Shown in pieces: positions 59 through 34,398 of a stretch of DNA of 64,000 nucleotides. This DNA is from Chloroflexota bacterium (GTDB lineage Bacteria > Chloroflexota > Limnocylindria > P2-11E), in NCBI GenBank assembly GCA_005889405.1, contig VBFY01000061.1, forward strand, positions 1 to 64,000, written 5' to 3'. The notes beneath the pieces were generated by a model that saw nothing but the letters and a program-made list of their open reading frames with translations, searched no databases and was not told the DNA's origin. The first letter of the stretch is position 1. The number at the start of each line of letters is the position of its first letter. A program made the translations under genes and the position numbers.

Positions 59-130
<72 letters not shown>

Positions 131-133
131 CAT

Positions 134-226: not shown

Positions 227-661
227 ATGCCCTACGCAGATCCTGACGAGCGGCGAGCTTACGGCCGCGAGTGGATGAAGCGCAATCCGGAGAAGGCGCG
301 TGCGGGCATGCAGCGCTGGCGGGCAGCGCACCCGGCGGAGCACCGCGCTCAAGGCCGCGCTCGCTACGCGCGACACACGGATCGGCTCAAAGCCCAGATT
401 GCGGCGTACCACCGCGCACATCCCGACATCGTCAGAGCGAAGCGCGAGAAGCACCGCGCGCTGCGTAAGGGCGCCATAGGTTTCTTCACCGCCGAGGAGT
501 GGCAGCAGCTTGTCATCGAGTACGACCACGCGTGCAACTATTGCGGCGTGATCGGACCACTCGAGCAGGATCATCGTGTTCCCCTTGCTCGAGGCGGTAC
601 GAATTGGATCGAGAACATCTTGCCGGCTTGCCGCCGCTGCAACGCCCGCAAGCCTTGCTGA
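227..661 (+). CDS. HNH endonuclease, 3' end frameshifted
   Basis: A 144-residue HNH nuclease. The first about 85 residues are basic and repetitive (DPDERRAYGREWMKRNPEKA and similar), which suggests DNA binding. The nuclease core follows: CNYC near residue 106, DH in EQDHRVPLARGGTN, and CRRC near residue 135, giving all four zinc cysteines. The frame stops at CNARKPC, but another frame continues to 711 with LLTEDEFRAR, matching the C-terminal tail of the related gene at 1388-1885. One missing G near 652 explains this. It is about 20 residues shorter than its paralog, but the catalytic core is intact. The start is an ATG; another ATG at 211 opens only an 11-codon frame. The target is unknown. 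Such free-standing HNH genes are common in phages and mobile DNA. Confidence 0.75.
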   Translation: MPYADPDERRAYGREWMKRNPEKARAGMQRWRAAHPAEHRAQGRARYARHTDRLKAQIAAYHRAHPDIVRAKREKHRALRKGAIGFFTAEEWQQLVIEYDHACNYCGVIGPLEQDHRVPLARGGTNWIENILPACRRCNARKPC

Positions 662-707: not shown

Positions 708-1331
708 CTAGCGCCGTTGCGACTGACGCATCATGTAGTAGAAGAAACCGCCGATCAGGAACACTGGCAGAAGGCTCAAGAGGATCGAGCCGATCACTGA
801 GAACGTGGGGCTCTCCTGCTGGTAGTCGATGGTGATCTGCCGCGATGGGTTCGCGGTGTTGTAGTCGAAGAGCGCCTTCTGGAAGACCTCGTCGCGCTCC
901 GGCAGTGTCGTCTGATGTTTGTCCCCGTTGGCGAGCTCCAATACGGCCCGGTTCGCCCCGCTGAAGATCGTGACCTTCTTCACCTGGCCGGCGTTGACCT
1001 CCTGGATCGCCTGGGTGATCGTCACGGTCTGTATCGCCGGTGTCTGTGAGCGGTACGCGTAGAGCAGGGCGAGCCCCAGCACGACCAGCAGCAGAGTCAG
1101 CACGCCGTTCCGGAAAGCACTTGTCGGACGCGGGACGCCGGTCGCGGCCACCGCGATCTCGCCCGAATCGCGAAACCCCTTACAACGACACGGCGCGCCG
1201 CCGATCTCGCGATAGCAGGGACGATCGACGCCGGCGTCCGTGCGGGCCGCCCGATGCGCGCCGTCGCGGTCGTGCCAGGACCATACGTGACCGCACTCGG
1301 CGCAGATCGCGCGGGCATCGTTCACGGCCAC
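708..1331 (-). CDS. zinc-ribbon-like motif fused to an FtsH N-terminal region (no ATPase or protease)
   Basis: A 207-residue protein in two parts. Residues about 10-52 hold a cysteine/histidine cluster (CAECGHVWSWH, then C..., then CRC) that probably binds a metal. Residues about 72-207 copy the membrane region of FtsH: TM1 ([16 protein letters not shown]), the extracytoplasmic domain, then TM2, ending at MMRQSQRR just where the FtsH ATPase linker would start. It closely resembles the full ftsH at 3378-5342, with blocks such as [18 protein letters not shown] identical. It lies antisense between the two HNH genes. It could join FtsH hexamers or compete for FtsH partners (HflKC-type or SPFH proteins), or it could be a decaying duplicate. 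The open frame and in-frame fusion favour a real gene. Start GTG. Confidence 0.7.
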   Translation of the reverse strand: MAVNDARAICAECGHVWSWHDRDGAHRAARTDAGVDRPCYREIGGAPCRCKGFRDSGEIAVAATGVPRPTSAFRNGVLTLLLVVLGLALLYAYRSQTPAIQTVTITQAIQEVNAGQVKKVTIFSGANRAVLELANGDKHQTTLPERDEVFQKALFDYNTANPSRQITIDYQQESPTFSVIGSILLSLLPVFLIGGFFYYMMRQSQRR

Positions 1332-1387: not shown

Positions 1388-1885
1388 GTGGCGTACAAGG
1401 ATCCGGAACGGCAGCGTGCGTACGCACGCGAGTGGATGAAGCGCAATCCCGAGAAAGCGCGCGAGGCGGTACGTCGGTGGAGCAAGACGCACCCTGAACA
1501 GCGGCGCGCGGCGAAGCGACTCTATTACGCACGCCACCGCGAACAGCACACGCTAACCATGGCCGCATATCACAAGGCCCATCCGGAGGTTCTTCGAGCT
1601 AAGAGCAGCGCATATCGCGCGCGTGCTCGCGCAGCCGACGGGCGCTTCACGAGTGCTGAGTGGCGCGCCCTGGTCGACATTTATGACGGCAGGTGCGCGT
1701 ACCGCGGCGAGGCGGGACCTCTCCAGGTGGACCATCGAATCCCGCTGTCACGAGGAGGCACGAACGCGATCGACAACGTGCTCCCGGCGTGTCGGACGTG
1801 CAACACGCAGAAGGGCCAGATGACCGAGACCGAGTTTCGAGCGCGCCTCGATGCGGAGCGTCGCGCAGCTACGCCGATAGAATGA
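1388..1885 (+). CDS. HNH endonuclease paralog with one zinc cysteine lost
   Basis: A 165-residue HNH protein clearly related to the gene at 227: the same N-terminal repeats (WMKRNPEKA), the same spacing, and the catalytic stretch VDHRIPLSRGGTN. Its C-terminal tail is complete (TETEFRARLDAERR). The first zinc knuckle reads CAYRG instead of CxxC, so one of four structural cysteines is an arginine (codon cgc). CRTC near residue 137 is intact. Loss of one ligand could weaken folding of the beta-beta-alpha-metal unit. The gene ends on top of the promoter of the following tRNA. Start GTG; no ribosome binding site is seen and it is probably leaderless. Confidence 0.75.
   Translation: MAYKDPERQRAYAREWMKRNPEKAREAVRRWSKTHPEQRRAAKRLYYARHREQHTLTMAAYHKAHPEVLRAKSSAYRARARAADGRFTSAEWRALVDIYDGRCAYRGEAGPLQVDHRIPLSRGGTNAIDNVLPACRTCNTQKGQMTETEFRARLDAERRAATPIE
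1878..1883 (+). promoter_or_regulatory. -10 box of the CAU tRNA promoter
   Basis: TAGAAT, the same hexamer as before the initiator tRNA, lies 19 bases before the tRNA at 1903 and inside the last codons of the HNH gene. It predicts a 5' leader of about 12 bases. Confidence 0.5.
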
Positions 1886-1902: not shown

Positions 1903-1980
1903 GGCTGGGTAGCTCAGTTGGCCTAGAGCAGTCGACTCATAACCGACCGGTCGGCGGTTCGAATCCGCCCCCAGCCACCA
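1903..1980 (+). tRNA. tRNA with CAU anticodon, probably tRNA-Ile2 (or elongator Met)
   Basis: Acceptor GGCTGGG (1903-1909) pairs with CCCAGCC (1970-1976), followed by A and an encoded CCA. The anticodon loop is CTCATAA. The anticodon and variable region (CTCATAACCGACCGGTCG) looks more like bacillar tRNA-Ile2 than elongator tRNA-Met. The next base after CCA is the first base of tilS, whose enzyme modifies exactly tRNA-Ile2(CAU). Both facts point to Ile2, but the acceptor stem lacks the C4-G69/C5-G68 pairs used by E. coli TilS, so elongator Met remains possible. An A:C mismatch closes the anticodon stem. Confidence 0.9.
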
Positions 1981-3387
1981 GTGGCAATGGTTCTCCCGTC
2001 CACGATTCTCAGCTCCGTCCGTTCCTACGCGCGCGCCAACAAGATCCTCCGTCCCGGTCCGCTCGTCCTCGCGGTCTCCGGCGGCACCGACTCGACCGCG
2101 CTCGCGCTCCTCCTCGCGGAGCTGCGCGACGACGTCGGCCTCGTGCTTCACGTCGCGCACTTCGATCACCGCGCGCGTCCGCGCGCGGCCGCTGCGGACG
2201 CGGCGTTCGTCGCGGAGCTCGCCAACCATATCGGCGCCACGCTGCGTGTGGGTCGCGCGGACGCGCCGCCGAAGAACGAGGACGATGCGCGCAACGCCCG
2301 CTACGCGTTCCTGCGACGTGTCGCGCGCGACCTCGGCGCGACGGCGATCGCCACGGGCCACACGCGGGACGATCAGGCCGAGACCGTCCTGCTCCACCTC
2401 GCACGCGGAAGTGGACTCGCGGGACTTGCGGCCATGCGACCCGAACGCGACGGCATCGTCCGTCCGCTTCTCACGCTGGGTCGCAGCGACACGTCCGCCG
2501 TTTGCGCCGCGGCAAGGATCACCCCGCGCGACGACCCGACGAATCGCTCCCTGCGATTTGCCCGGAATCGCATCCGGCACCGCGTCCTGCCGGAGCTCGC
2601 GAAGCTCAATCCGGATATCACGAGCGCGATCGCGCGGCTGGCCGAGGCCGCGGCGGCGGTCGCGGACATCTCCTCGGATCACGCGGCCGTCACGCTCGGG
2701 GCCGCGGTGAGTCAAGACGCCGTCGTTCTGGACCGCCTGCCGCCCCGCGGGGAGGCCCGCGCCGCCGCGCTCGCCCTCTGGTGGCAGCAGCGCACGGGTC
2801 AGGGGCTCGCGGCACGCCAGCGAGCCGCGCTCACGCAGCTTGCGGCGTCGACCGATGGCTCGCGATCCCTCGACCTGCCCGGCGGGCGAGCGCTTCGCGA
2901 ATACAAGACGCTACGGATCGCCCCGCGGGAAGAGGGGTCGGTTGCGGCGGGTAAGAAGACGCTAAGAAACGGGCCGATCACGCTCGAACGCGGGACGACC
3001 GCGGACTGGCATGGATGGCGCTTCGCGTTTGTTGTGGGTTTGGACGGCGGTTCGCAGGTCGCACTCTTAGGCGCAGAGCGAGTGATCATTCGCGGACGCC
3101 GACCGGGAGACCGAATCAACGGCCCGCGAGGTGCAAAGGTCCAGGACGTGTTCACCGACGCGAAGGTCCCCGCGGGCGAGCGCGACGGGTGGCCGCTGGT
3201 CACCGTTGCCGCAAAGGTCGTTTGGATCCCTGGGATCACGCCACCCCCGCGCACCGGGCGATCGGCCCTCCGAGCGCTCCGAATGGGGGAGGACTCTCAA
3301 GGAATGACCCTTGGTAACCGCCAGCAGGTAGCATCGTTAAGAGAAGAGCGCCCACGGGGCACAGAGAGAGGCCGGCCACGAACCTAG
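1981..3387 (+). CDS. tilS: tRNA(Ile)-lysidine synthase
   Basis: Attaches lysine to C34 of tRNA-Ile2(CAU) with ATP, so that the tRNA reads AUA and is charged with isoleucine. The 468-residue protein has the PP-loop ATP site SGGTDS (33-38), the conserved GHTRDDQAET (126-135), and a C-terminal tRNA-binding domain near residues 370-405 (GDRIN, VQDVFTDAKVP). The length is normal for the long form. The GTG start follows directly on the CCA of the CAU tRNA; an ATG two codons later is an alternative. The 3' end overlaps the probable true start of ftsH; tilS-ftsH is a widespread gene pair. Confidence 0.95.
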   Translation: MAMVLPSTILSSVRSYARANKILRPGPLVLAVSGGTDSTALALLLAELRDDVGLVLHVAHFDHRARPRAAAADAAFVAELANHIGATLRVGRADAPPKNEDDARNARYAFLRRVARDLGATAIATGHTRDDQAETVLLHLARGSGLAGLAAMRPERDGIVRPLLTLGRSDTSAVCAAARITPRDDPTNRSLRFARNRIRHRVLPELAKLNPDITSAIARLAEAAAAVADISSDHAAVTLGAAVSQDAVVLDRLPPRGEARAAALALWWQQRTGQGLAARQRAALTQLAASTDGSRSLDLPGGRALREYKTLRIAPREEGSVAAGKKTLRNGPITLERGTTADWHGWRFAFVVGLDGGSQVALLGAERVIIRGRRPGDRINGPRGAKVQDVFTDAKVPAGERDGWPLVTVAAKVVWIPGITPPPRTGRSALRALRMGEDSQGMTLGNRQQVASLREERPRGTERGRPRT

Positions 3388-5342
3388 ACAACCGCATCTT
3401 CAAGAACGGCATCCTGACCCTGCTTCTGGTCGTCATGGGGCTGGCGCTGCTTTACGCATACCGCTCGCAGACGCCCTCCGTGCAGACGATCGAGATCACC
3501 AAGGCGATCCAGGAGATCCAGTCGGGTCAGGTCAAGAAGGTCACCATCATCACCGGTTCGAACAGGGCCACGATCGAGCTGATCGCGACGGGTGACAAGC
3601 AGCAGACCAACCTGCCGGACAAGGACGAGGTCTTCCAGAAAGCGCTCTTCGACTACAACACCGCCAACCCGTCGCGGCAGATCACGATCGACTATCAGCA
3701 GGAGAGCGCCACGTTCTCGGTGATCGGCTCGATCTTCCTGAGCCTGTTGCCAGTGGTGCTGATCGGCGGCTTCTTCTTCTACATGATGCGGCAGGCCCAG
3801 GGCACGAATAACCAGGCCCTTTCCTTCGGAAAGAGCCGCGCCCGCATGTTCATCGGCAACAAGCCGACGGTCACTTTCGAGGACGTCGCCGGCGTCGAGG
3901 AGGCGAAGCAGGAGCTCACGGAGGTGGTCGAGTTCCTCAAGTACCCGGAGAAGTTCTCGAGCCTCGGCGCGCGCATCCCGCGCGGCGTGCTACTCGTCGG
4001 ACCGCCCGGCACCGGCAAGACGATGCTCGCGCGCGCCGTCGCCGGCGAAGCGGGCGTGCCGTTCTTCTCGATCTCCGGCTCTGAGTTCGTCGAGATGTTC
4101 GTCGGCGTGGGCGCGTCGCGCGTGCGCGACCTGTTCGATCAGGCGAAGCGCAACGCCCCGTGCATCGTGTTCATCGACGAGATCGACGCGGTCGGTCGCC
4201 AACGCGGCGCCGGCCTCGGCGGGTCACACGACGAGCGCGAGCAGACCCTGAACCAGATCCTGGTGGAGATGGATGGCTTCGACACCGGCACGAACGTCAT
4301 CGTGGTCGCCGCAACGAACCGTCCAGACGTTCTCGACCCGGCCCTCCTCCGGCCCGGCCGCTTCGACCGGCAGGTCGTGCTCGACCGCCCCGACATCAAG
4401 GGCCGTCGCGCGATCCTCGACGTGCATGTTCGCGGCAAGCCGCTCGACAAGAACGTGGAGCTGCTCCGCGTCGCGCAGATCTCGCCCGGCTTTTCCGGCG
4501 CGGACCTCGCCAACGTCGTCAACGAGGCGGCGATCCTCGCCGCGCGCCGCAACAAGAAGACGATCGGTCAGATCGACTTCGAAGAGGCGCTCGAGAAGGT
4601 CGCCCTTGGTCCCGAGCGCCGTTCGCGCGTCATCACCGAGAAGGAGAAGTGGATCGTGGCCTACCACGAGGCCGGCCACGCACTCTGCTTCAAGCTACTC
4701 AAGCACACCAACCCGGTGCACAAGATCTCGATCGTCGCTCGCGGCATGGCCATGGGCGTGACGTGGTCGCTCCCCCAGGAGGACCGCTACATGCGGACCA
4801 AGCGCGAGTTCGAGGACGACATCGCCGCGGCGCTCGGGGGCTGGGTCGCCGAGCAGCTGCACCTGGGCGGCGACGCCACGACCGGTGCGAGCAATGACAT
4901 CGAGAAGGCGTCCCAGATGGCGCGGCAGATGGTCACGAAGTTCGGCATGAGCGAGAAGCTCGGCCCGCTCCAGTACGGCCGGAGCGACGAGCTCATCTTC
5001 CTCGGTCGTCAGATCCAGGAAGAGCGCAACTATTCGGAAGAGATCGCCAAGGTCATCGACGCCGAAGTCCACGACATCGTCGAGCGCGCGCGTCAGCGTG
5101 CGTACGAGGTGCTCACGCAGAACCGAGACAAGCTCGACCTCGTCGTGCAGAAGCTCATCGCGCAGGAGTCGCTCGAGGCCGCCGAGTTCGACGCCCTCTT
5201 CGACGAGCCAGGTGAGGGCACGCCCATCGCGGCGGTGACCGGTGGTCCCGACATCGCACCGCCTGGAGCACCCGCAGGCGAGCCAGAGCGCGAGAAGGCT
5301 AAGAAGGCCAAGGGTCCAGCGACCGCACCGACGCCGGCTTAG
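3378..5342 (+). CDS. ftsH: ATP-dependent zinc metalloprotease FtsH
   Basis: Membrane-anchored AAA protease that unfolds and degrades membrane and short-lived cytosolic proteins. Counting from the ATG at 3435: Walker A GPPGTGKT (189-196), Walker B and IVFIDEIDA (244-252), arginine-finger region (RPGRFDRQV), zinc site HEAGH (411-415) and the third ligand near D488. The first ATG/GTG/TTG in frame (3435) falls inside TM1 and would leave only about nine hydrophobic residues. The frame is open upstream to 3318 and encodes [18 protein letters not shown], the usual FtsH start region. An AGAGAGAGG lies 7 bases before ACG at 3378, which I take as the likely start (perhaps ATG in reality). The C-terminal tail is rich in Pro, Ala and Lys. 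Confidence 0.95.
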
Positions 5343-33502: not shown

Positions 33503-34398
33503 TGGATATCGGTCTTGCCATCGCGATCTTCGCGGCAGTCATCGTGATCCTCATCCTGCGCACGATCATCCACATCGTGCCTCAGTACCAGCGCCTCGTG
33601 GTCCTGGCGCTCGGGAGATATCAGAAGATGGCCGGACCTGGCTTGGTGCTCCTGCTCCCGCCGCCGATCCAGGTCGGCATCAACGTCGACCTGCGTGAGT
33701 TCGTAGTCGAGATCCCGCAACAGACCTGCATCACCAAGGACAACGCGCCCATCTCGATCGACTTCCTGATCTACCAGAAGGTGATGGAGGAGCAGGCCGC
33801 CGACTCCGTCCTGAAGATCCAGAACTTCCGGACCGCCGTCACGGGCATCGCGACCACGACACTCCGCGCCGTGATCGGCGACATCCTCCTCGATGACGTG
33901 CTCGCCAAGCGCGAGCAGATCAACGAGGTGCTGCGGACGAAGCTCGACGAGGTGACCCAACGGTGGGGCGTGAAGGTCACCACGGTCGAGATCCGCGAGC
34001 TCACCCCACCGCGCGACGTCCAAGAGGCGATGAACCGCCAGCTCACCGCCGAGCGCACCCGGCGCGCGTCGGTCACCGAAGCCGAGGGCAAGCGCGCCTC
34101 CGCGATCCTCGTGGCCGAGGGCGACAAGCAGTCGAACATCCTCCAGGCCGAGGGACAGAGGCAATCGCAGATCCTGCGCGCCGAGGGCTTCGCCCTCGCG
34201 CTCGACAAGATCAACGAGATGGCGAATCACGCCGACCCGCGGACGATCACGCTGCAGTACCTCGAGGCGCTCAAGGTGCTCGGCGCGTCGCCGTCGACGA
34301 AGTTCATCATCCCGACCGAGTTCGCGGCCCTCGCCGCGCCGCTCGCGGCGTTCGCGCGCGGCGGCGGCGAAGACGGCGAGAAGAAGGCGCCGCGCTAG
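33502..34398 (+). CDS. SPFH/stomatin-like protein (slipin)
   Basis: 298 residues: one N-terminal membrane helix (1-20), SPFH domain (RTIIHIVPQYQRLVVLALGR onward, residues 21-190), then a long Ala/Glu/Gln-rich coiled coil (about 185-255) and a C-terminal Gly-rich end. The core motifs DLREFVVEIPQQ and ELTPPRDVQEAMNRQLTAER are typical of stomatins. It forms membrane rings or scaffolds and is the expected partner of the NfeD protease upstream. No further gene follows until the small reverse-strand gene at 34698. Confidence 0.92.
   Translation: MDIGLAIAIFAAVIVILILRTIIHIVPQYQRLVVLALGRYQKMAGPGLVLLLPPPIQVGINVDLREFVVEIPQQTCITKDNAPISIDFLIYQKVMEEQAADSVLKIQNFRTAVTGIATTTLRAVIGDILLDDVLAKREQINEVLRTKLDEVTQRWGVKVTTVEIRELTPPRDVQEAMNRQLTAERTRRASVTEAEGKRASAILVAEGDKQSNILQAEGQRQSQILRAEGFALALDKINEMANHADPRTITLQYLEALKVLGASPSTKFIIPTEFAALAAPLAAFARGGGEDGEKKAPR

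Follow-up and report, generated by a model that had tools for sequence, protein, structure and literature searches.

The window is the whole stretch of DNA that was analysed, 64,000 nucleotides of a contig from a Chloroflexota bacterium (VBFY01000061.1, assembly GCA_005889405.1). Close to its beginning lies a small gene, here called the fusion, that joins a Cys/His-rich head to the membrane part of FtsH, and a full-length ftsH follows on the opposite strand (Table 1). The gene between the two is presumably tilS, a name taken from its sequence and place. Two copies of an HNH endonuclease-like frame occur in the window, one on either side of the fusion and each near a tRNA-Met gene; single copies between tRNA-Met genes were seen in several relatives. 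The HNH copies may have played a part in the mobilisation or conversion of the fusion locus.

Table 1. Positions in the window of the fusion, its parts and its neighbours
Feature	Position	Strand	Remarks
tRNA-Met	59..131	+	
HNH endonuclease-like ORF, upstream copy flanking the fusion	227..661	+	
Fusion, whole ORF: Cys/His-rich head plus FtsH TM1, extracytoplasmic domain and TM2	708..1331	-	207 aa; GTG start; stop at 708-710
TM2 and short basic tail, residues 175-207	711..809	-	end of the protein; FtsH continues into the ATPase here
Extracytoplasmic domain, residues 96-174	810..1046	-	FtsH N-domain fold (predicted)
TM1, residues 71-95	1047..1121	-	modelled helix, homologous to FtsH TM1
Head, residues 1-62	1146..1331	-	C10, C13, H15, H20, C39, C48 and C50 invariant in 10/10 homologues; putative metal binding
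HNH endonuclease-like ORF, second copy flanking the fusion	1388..1885	+	
tRNA-Met	1903..1980	+	
tilS-like gene (presumed) between fusion and ftsH	1981..3387	+	
Full-length ftsH, parent and probable partner of the fusion	3378..5342	+	probable ACG start at 3378; overlaps the end of tilS

Genomes are numbered from G000, the window genome; the family set comprised 28 genomes, in which g1 is the genus of the window and g5 a second genus with the fusion. In G000, G002, G013, G022 and G023 the fusion is antisense and adjoins an HNH gene and the tRNA-Met-tilS-ftsH block, at about 2 kb from ftsH. In five g5 genomes (G016, G018, G024, G026 and G027) it has moved and lies between genes for an RlpA-like (DPBB) protein and an aldo/keto reductase, in the same direction; these neighbours are 84-95% identical among the five.

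The window genome has one full ftsH. A further, partial Peptidase_M41 match was seen in a 618-aa frame on another contig (G000:C114:60034-60360). The window ftsH has no ATG, GTG or TTG before TM1. When the starts were read (window 3378-3435, L016-L029 and L052-L071), the codon at the expected place was CTG in 17, ACG in six, including the window, and ATG in one of the 24 family genomes read, G005 being left out. ACG is also found at this place in G028 of a sister family. In G022 and G023 the first codon of the ftsH frame is a CTG that directly follows a stop, and the frame begins within the last part of tilS. The pattern of codons suggests a conserved non-AUG start of ftsH that is coupled to tilS, with upstream starts possible in some genomes.

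Architecture of the fusion protein

The earlier note had claimed that a Cys/His motif is joined in frame to TM1, the extracytoplasmic domain and TM2 of FtsH, with no ATPase. This was confirmed. The frame is intact and uninterrupted over its 207 residues, a linker connects the head to TM1, and Pfam FtsH_ext matches residues 77-157 (E 6e-8, 33.3 bits, cut-off 25.5), the domain lying between two predicted transmembrane helices. The Pfam scan of the protein found neither an AAA ATPase nor a Peptidase_M41 domain, and the frame stops right after TM2. The fusion stands above chance expectation because full-length homologues exist in nine further species (48-63% identity) and because the GC content by codon position is 0.63/0.47/0.85. 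It is a conserved gene and not debris.

From residue 71 onward the prediction is confident (mean pLDDT per block 72-96) and shows an N-domain flanked by two long helices. The modelled N-domain superimposes on the hexameric N-domain of E. coli FtsH, 4v0b, with a Z of 10.6 and an rmsd of 1.5 over 63 of 63 residues, so that the membrane block is, as modelled, an FtsH N-domain fold. The juxtamembrane motif LYAYRSQ of FtsH is also kept. The block shares 79% protein identity and, over 391 bases, 81% DNA identity with the neighbouring ftsH (dN 0.15, dS 0.55 in the window genome), and an extracytoplasmic block nearly identical to that of FtsH, as had been claimed, was thus an overstatement. One study reports that an E. 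coli FtsH fragment of the membrane and periplasmic parts that has lost the cytosolic domain forms C6-symmetric particles and is still hexameric (PMC13097134), so that the membrane block is able to hold together without the ATPase.

The head has 24 columns that are invariant in an alignment of ten homologues, the seven Cys and His residues of Table 1 among them. It probably binds zinc, to judge from the Cys/His pattern. Modelled alone it had a pLDDT of 57, and it was poorly modelled within the whole protein also. Pfam gave no significant match for the head, and no family matched it above a curated cut-off: NCBIfam RGCVC scored 15.5 bits with the head of the window copy, for a cut-off of 35. The best E values of the ten members were 1.8e-4 for phrog_2078 and 0.036 for phrog_1311, PHROG having no curated cut-off, and 0.0027 for RGCVC. 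The likeness to these small Cys-rich families of unknown function is a weak similarity of the head. The possibility was considered that the head exists elsewhere as a separate gene. Eleven of 201 relatives gave weak matches (E 0.001-0.009), and the 12 places concerned were examined in frame; the frames lack the motif, and the matches were set aside as chance. In searches of the 201 relatives, 400 genomes of the phylum and genome_contigs, the head was found only within the fusion.

Distribution and selection

The full fusion was found in 10 of the 28 family genomes, namely two of five in g1, eight of 11 in g5 and none of 12 in the rest of the family; absences are uncertain in incomplete genomes, and in G004 the contig starts inside tilS. 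The fusion is missing from G001 and G020, which are 97% and 90% complete. The carriers are uncultured bacteria from soil. A search with the whole protein matched 73 of 101 genomes, mostly through FtsH itself, and a search of 201 genomes with the head gave strong matches (E about 5e-21 or less) in the same 10 genomes. Four of 400 genomes of the phylum matched, all within the family of the window. In genome_contigs, eight of 39 pattern stretches were confirmed, all of them Chloroflexi MAGs that are apparently repeats of family genomes already counted. Viral (IMG/VR), phage and plasmid collections held no relative of the fusion, and a gene borne by a phage, virus or plasmid was therefore rejected. 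A defence system was likewise rejected, PADLOC giving no match for the fusion. Outside the family, no true case of a separate FtsH_ext gene was found among the matches listed to an E of about 1.6e-5 in 177 genomes of the class, frames of less than 300 aa near contig starts in G149 and G130 being left out; of 20 short FtsH_ext frames in the class, 17 reach a contig end and three are broken by a frameshift or a gap of N.

All ten fusions have a start codon, ATG or GTG, at about the same position, and a few basic residues follow TM2 in each of the nine unbroken copies. The remaining copy (G022, L059 8252-8946) is frame-shifted near TM2, either by decay or by a sequencing error. For the head, dN/dS was 0.03-0.42 in 44 of 45 pairs, the last pair being saturated; the values are rough, many of the synonymous distances being high. 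The synonymous distance of the head between the two genera is at least 0.85.

These results bear on two proposals, that the fusion is under selection or that it arose recently. Selection was borne out by the conservation of the fusion in relatives, a dN/dS below 1 and shared start and stop positions. A recent origin was not supported, given homologues in two genera, the synonymous distance of the head and a similarity to ftsH that looks like homogenisation. Absence or disruption in close relatives, together with neutral substitution, had been named in the note as the refuting pattern. Nine of the ten copies are intact and the substitutions are not neutral, yet the distribution is patchy and some close relatives are without the fusion.

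The patchy presence (10 of 28 genomes) and the broken G022 copy are what a neutral partial duplicate, maintained by gene conversion, could leave behind. The head lies beyond the reach of ftsH conversion, however, and is under purifying selection with its 24 invariant positions. With a GC3 of 0.85 and all but one of the copies intact, neutrality is highly improbable.

Probable homogenisation by the neighbouring ftsH

A tree of the membrane block was computed from ten fusions and 14 FtsH sequences (F_ and H_ denote the fusion and the FtsH of a given genome). A single clade of fusions was rejected with protein (cost 66.8 log units, p-AU 7.8e-5) and with DNA (cost 53 units, p-AU 0.0025). The membrane blocks of the fusions cluster with ftsH sequences from the same lineage. 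In the protein tree the g1 fusions fall inside g1 ftsH, F_G022 and F_G023 stand beside H_G022, H_G023 and H_G020, F_G013 stands with H_G013, and the five moved copies are united in a clade (99/96). The tree of the head splits g1 from g5 (86/95). The data are compatible with a single clade of g5 fusions (p 0.098 for protein, 0.155 for DNA), so that the trees need no more than one replacement, or else a fusion that arose independently a second time; a single clade of g1 fusions is compatible also (p 0.31). In the g1 DNA tree F_G000 groups with F_G002 and not with its own ftsH, with weak support (72/86), and a grouping of F_G000 with H_G000 is compatible (p 0.22). A local conversion tract is suggested by a two-codon insert, which only F_G000 and H_G000 have in common.

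The identity of each fusion to its own FtsH was compared with the mean of its identities to other FtsH. The excess was 16.0, 13.4, 15.5, 12.2 and 8.6 points in the five copies near ftsH, and -0.7, 5.1, 7.2 and 5.0 points in four far copies, G024 being left out as no ftsH was found there; this contrast, over nine genomes, includes the kinship of the genomes. Six residues are private to a fusion and its own FtsH over the nine genomes, three of them in the genome of the window, which is more than with shuffled partners (p 0.007). Gene conversion from the ftsH next to the gene, which we infer as the cause, is the best explanation of the shared locus and the replaced membrane blocks; independent fusions at the same place are possible and less simple. 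The local similarity of the block to ftsH looks like homogenisation by ftsH.

Proposed function

The 5' part of ftsH, encoding TM1, the extracytoplasmic domain and TM2, may have been duplicated, as an inverted copy, to a site upstream of tilS-ftsH at a distance of about 2 kb. The copied block would have gained the small head, which probably binds zinc, in a common ancestor of two or more genera within a single Chloroflexota family. The topology of FtsH is established; from this topology and the basic tail after TM2, the head and the tail of the fusion would both be cytoplasmic. Most likely the membrane block assembles together with its counterpart in FtsH, or docks on it. This would place the head at the membrane face of the ATPase ring, where it would act either as an adaptor, which brings substrates, or as a brake, in which a subunit without an ATPase takes a place in the ring. 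Recurrent gene conversion by the neighbouring ftsH would keep the assembly domain matched to the FtsH of the host, and the head would evolve separately.

We give an even chance to the fusion being a partner of FtsH without catalytic activity, one that joins the FtsH assembly and exposes a metal-binding head in the cytosol, as adaptor or brake. The earlier note's proposal of a regulator that enters FtsH hexamers is still the foremost idea, with indirect backing from the lasting match of the membrane block to the FtsH of the host and from the hexameric E. coli fragment (PMC13097134). The architecture, the fold match, the conservation, the selection and the grouping with the ftsH of the same lineage are observed; the binding to FtsH, the metal, the cytosolic side and the direction of the effect are inferred. 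Several points count against a partner. Similar neighbours can undergo gene conversion with no functional need to match, and the fusion is dispensable, being absent from G001, G020 and each of the 12 family genomes that belong to other genera. The low confidence of the head model, the possible single clade of g5 fusions and the place of F_G000 in the g1 DNA tree count against it as well.

The moved copies raise the question of whether the FtsH block is a mere anchor for a Cys/His sensor or scaffold that works apart from FtsH. Five g5 genomes keep the fusion away from ftsH, between the RlpA-like and aldo/keto reductase genes, and in these the head is the best-kept part, with a dN of 0.03-0.07 as against 0.15-0.25 in the membrane block. 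A simple anchor, however, needs neither a full N-domain, nor LYAYRSQ, nor a match to its own FtsH, and we consider such a sensor or scaffold unlikely.

The fold matches of the N-domain include the HflKC-bound N-domain of FtsH (7wi3, 9cz2). The fusion could compete for partners of FtsH, its N-domain binding SPFH proteins (HflK, HflC or prohibitin-like) and setting the extent to which FtsH is caged. Band_7/SPFH genes occur in 27 of the 28 family genomes, with five matches in G000. But they are present with or without the fusion, and Band_7 is broad, matching 14 of 14 control genomes as well, and is no pointer to an HflKC function; competition of this kind is decidedly unlikely. One of the five genes of G000 lies in the window (33574-34092) and is a possible partner of FtsH. 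No partner of the YccA/Bax1-I kind was found in G000.

SpoVM is a small modulator of FtsH; it and phage lambda CIII are short peptides with no relationship to FtsH. The fusion, as a membrane protein that ends in a few basic residues, could plausibly be a client of FtsH, and it might be a small inhibitor or decoy substrate in the manner of these peptides; CIII is described as both inhibitor and substrate of FtsH (PMC1838920). Unlike CIII and SpoVM, the fusion derives from FtsH itself and has a conserved head, and a role of this sort is improbable.

Two further genomes have a different tail on the same block. In G008 (L061 7827-8384, minus strand) and G003 (L062 8186-8716, plus strand), FtsH_ext is followed by a C-terminal SHOCT domain (E 1.2e-8 and 4.1e-8). 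The two proteins are 48% identical to each other, lack the Cys/His head and are encoded at unrelated places in their genomes. The form with the head and the form with the SHOCT tail never occur in the same genome, which could be chance, as 12 of the 16 genomes of the two genera carry one or the other.

Tentatively, FtsH may be a two-component machine in these Chloroflexota. A subunit with neither ATPase nor protease would join or cap the membrane ring, a metal-dependent cytosolic head would select or block substrates, recurrent conversion would keep the assembly domain matched, and the SHOCT form would be a parallel invention. This wider proposal is possible, and somewhat unlikely.

The question behind the finding is how the choice of substrates is controlled in membrane proteases such as FtsH. 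The FtsH regulators that we can name are, to our knowledge, unrelated to FtsH. A natural FtsH assembly domain with a separate head would be a ready-made test of whether the ring of membrane and N-domains recruits non-catalytic subunits, and the protein would be a tool for steering or blocking FtsH. The copies beside ftsH and the moved copies, set against each other, form a natural experiment on bacterial gene conversion.

Comparison with known systems

FtsH is an AAA+ zinc metalloprotease composed of FtsH_ext, AAA and Peptidase_M41. The fusion shares TM1, the N-domain and TM2 with it, with a fold as in 4v0b, but ends after TM2 without the ATPase and the protease and has a new Cys/His head before TM1. 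The SHOCT-tailed proteins are likewise separate FtsH membrane domains from the same two genera; they differ in the SHOCT domain after TM2, the missing head and the other genome locations.

Chloroplast FtsHi and mixed FtsH or m-AAA hexamers are similar in that relatives of FtsH with altered or absent activity occur in one complex. FtsHi and the m-AAA paralogues retain the AAA module, whereas the fusion is entirely without it. Microproteins are paralogues that have kept only an oligomerisation domain and influence the parent protein, and the fusion resembles them in having an assembly domain with no catalytic domain; it differs in concerning a bacterial membrane protease, in its added head and in its apparent homogenisation by gene conversion. 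Lambda CIII and SpoVM are small, membrane-linked modulators of FtsH, a role that for the fusion is proposed only; they are not derived from FtsH and have no Cys/His head.

FtsH_ext is also reported, together with AAA domains, in the defence protein IetA (PMC10924106). No description of a separate FtsH membrane domain with a Cys/His head was found in the literature searched. The parts of the fusion are of known kinds; their combination and their matched evolution with ftsH look new.
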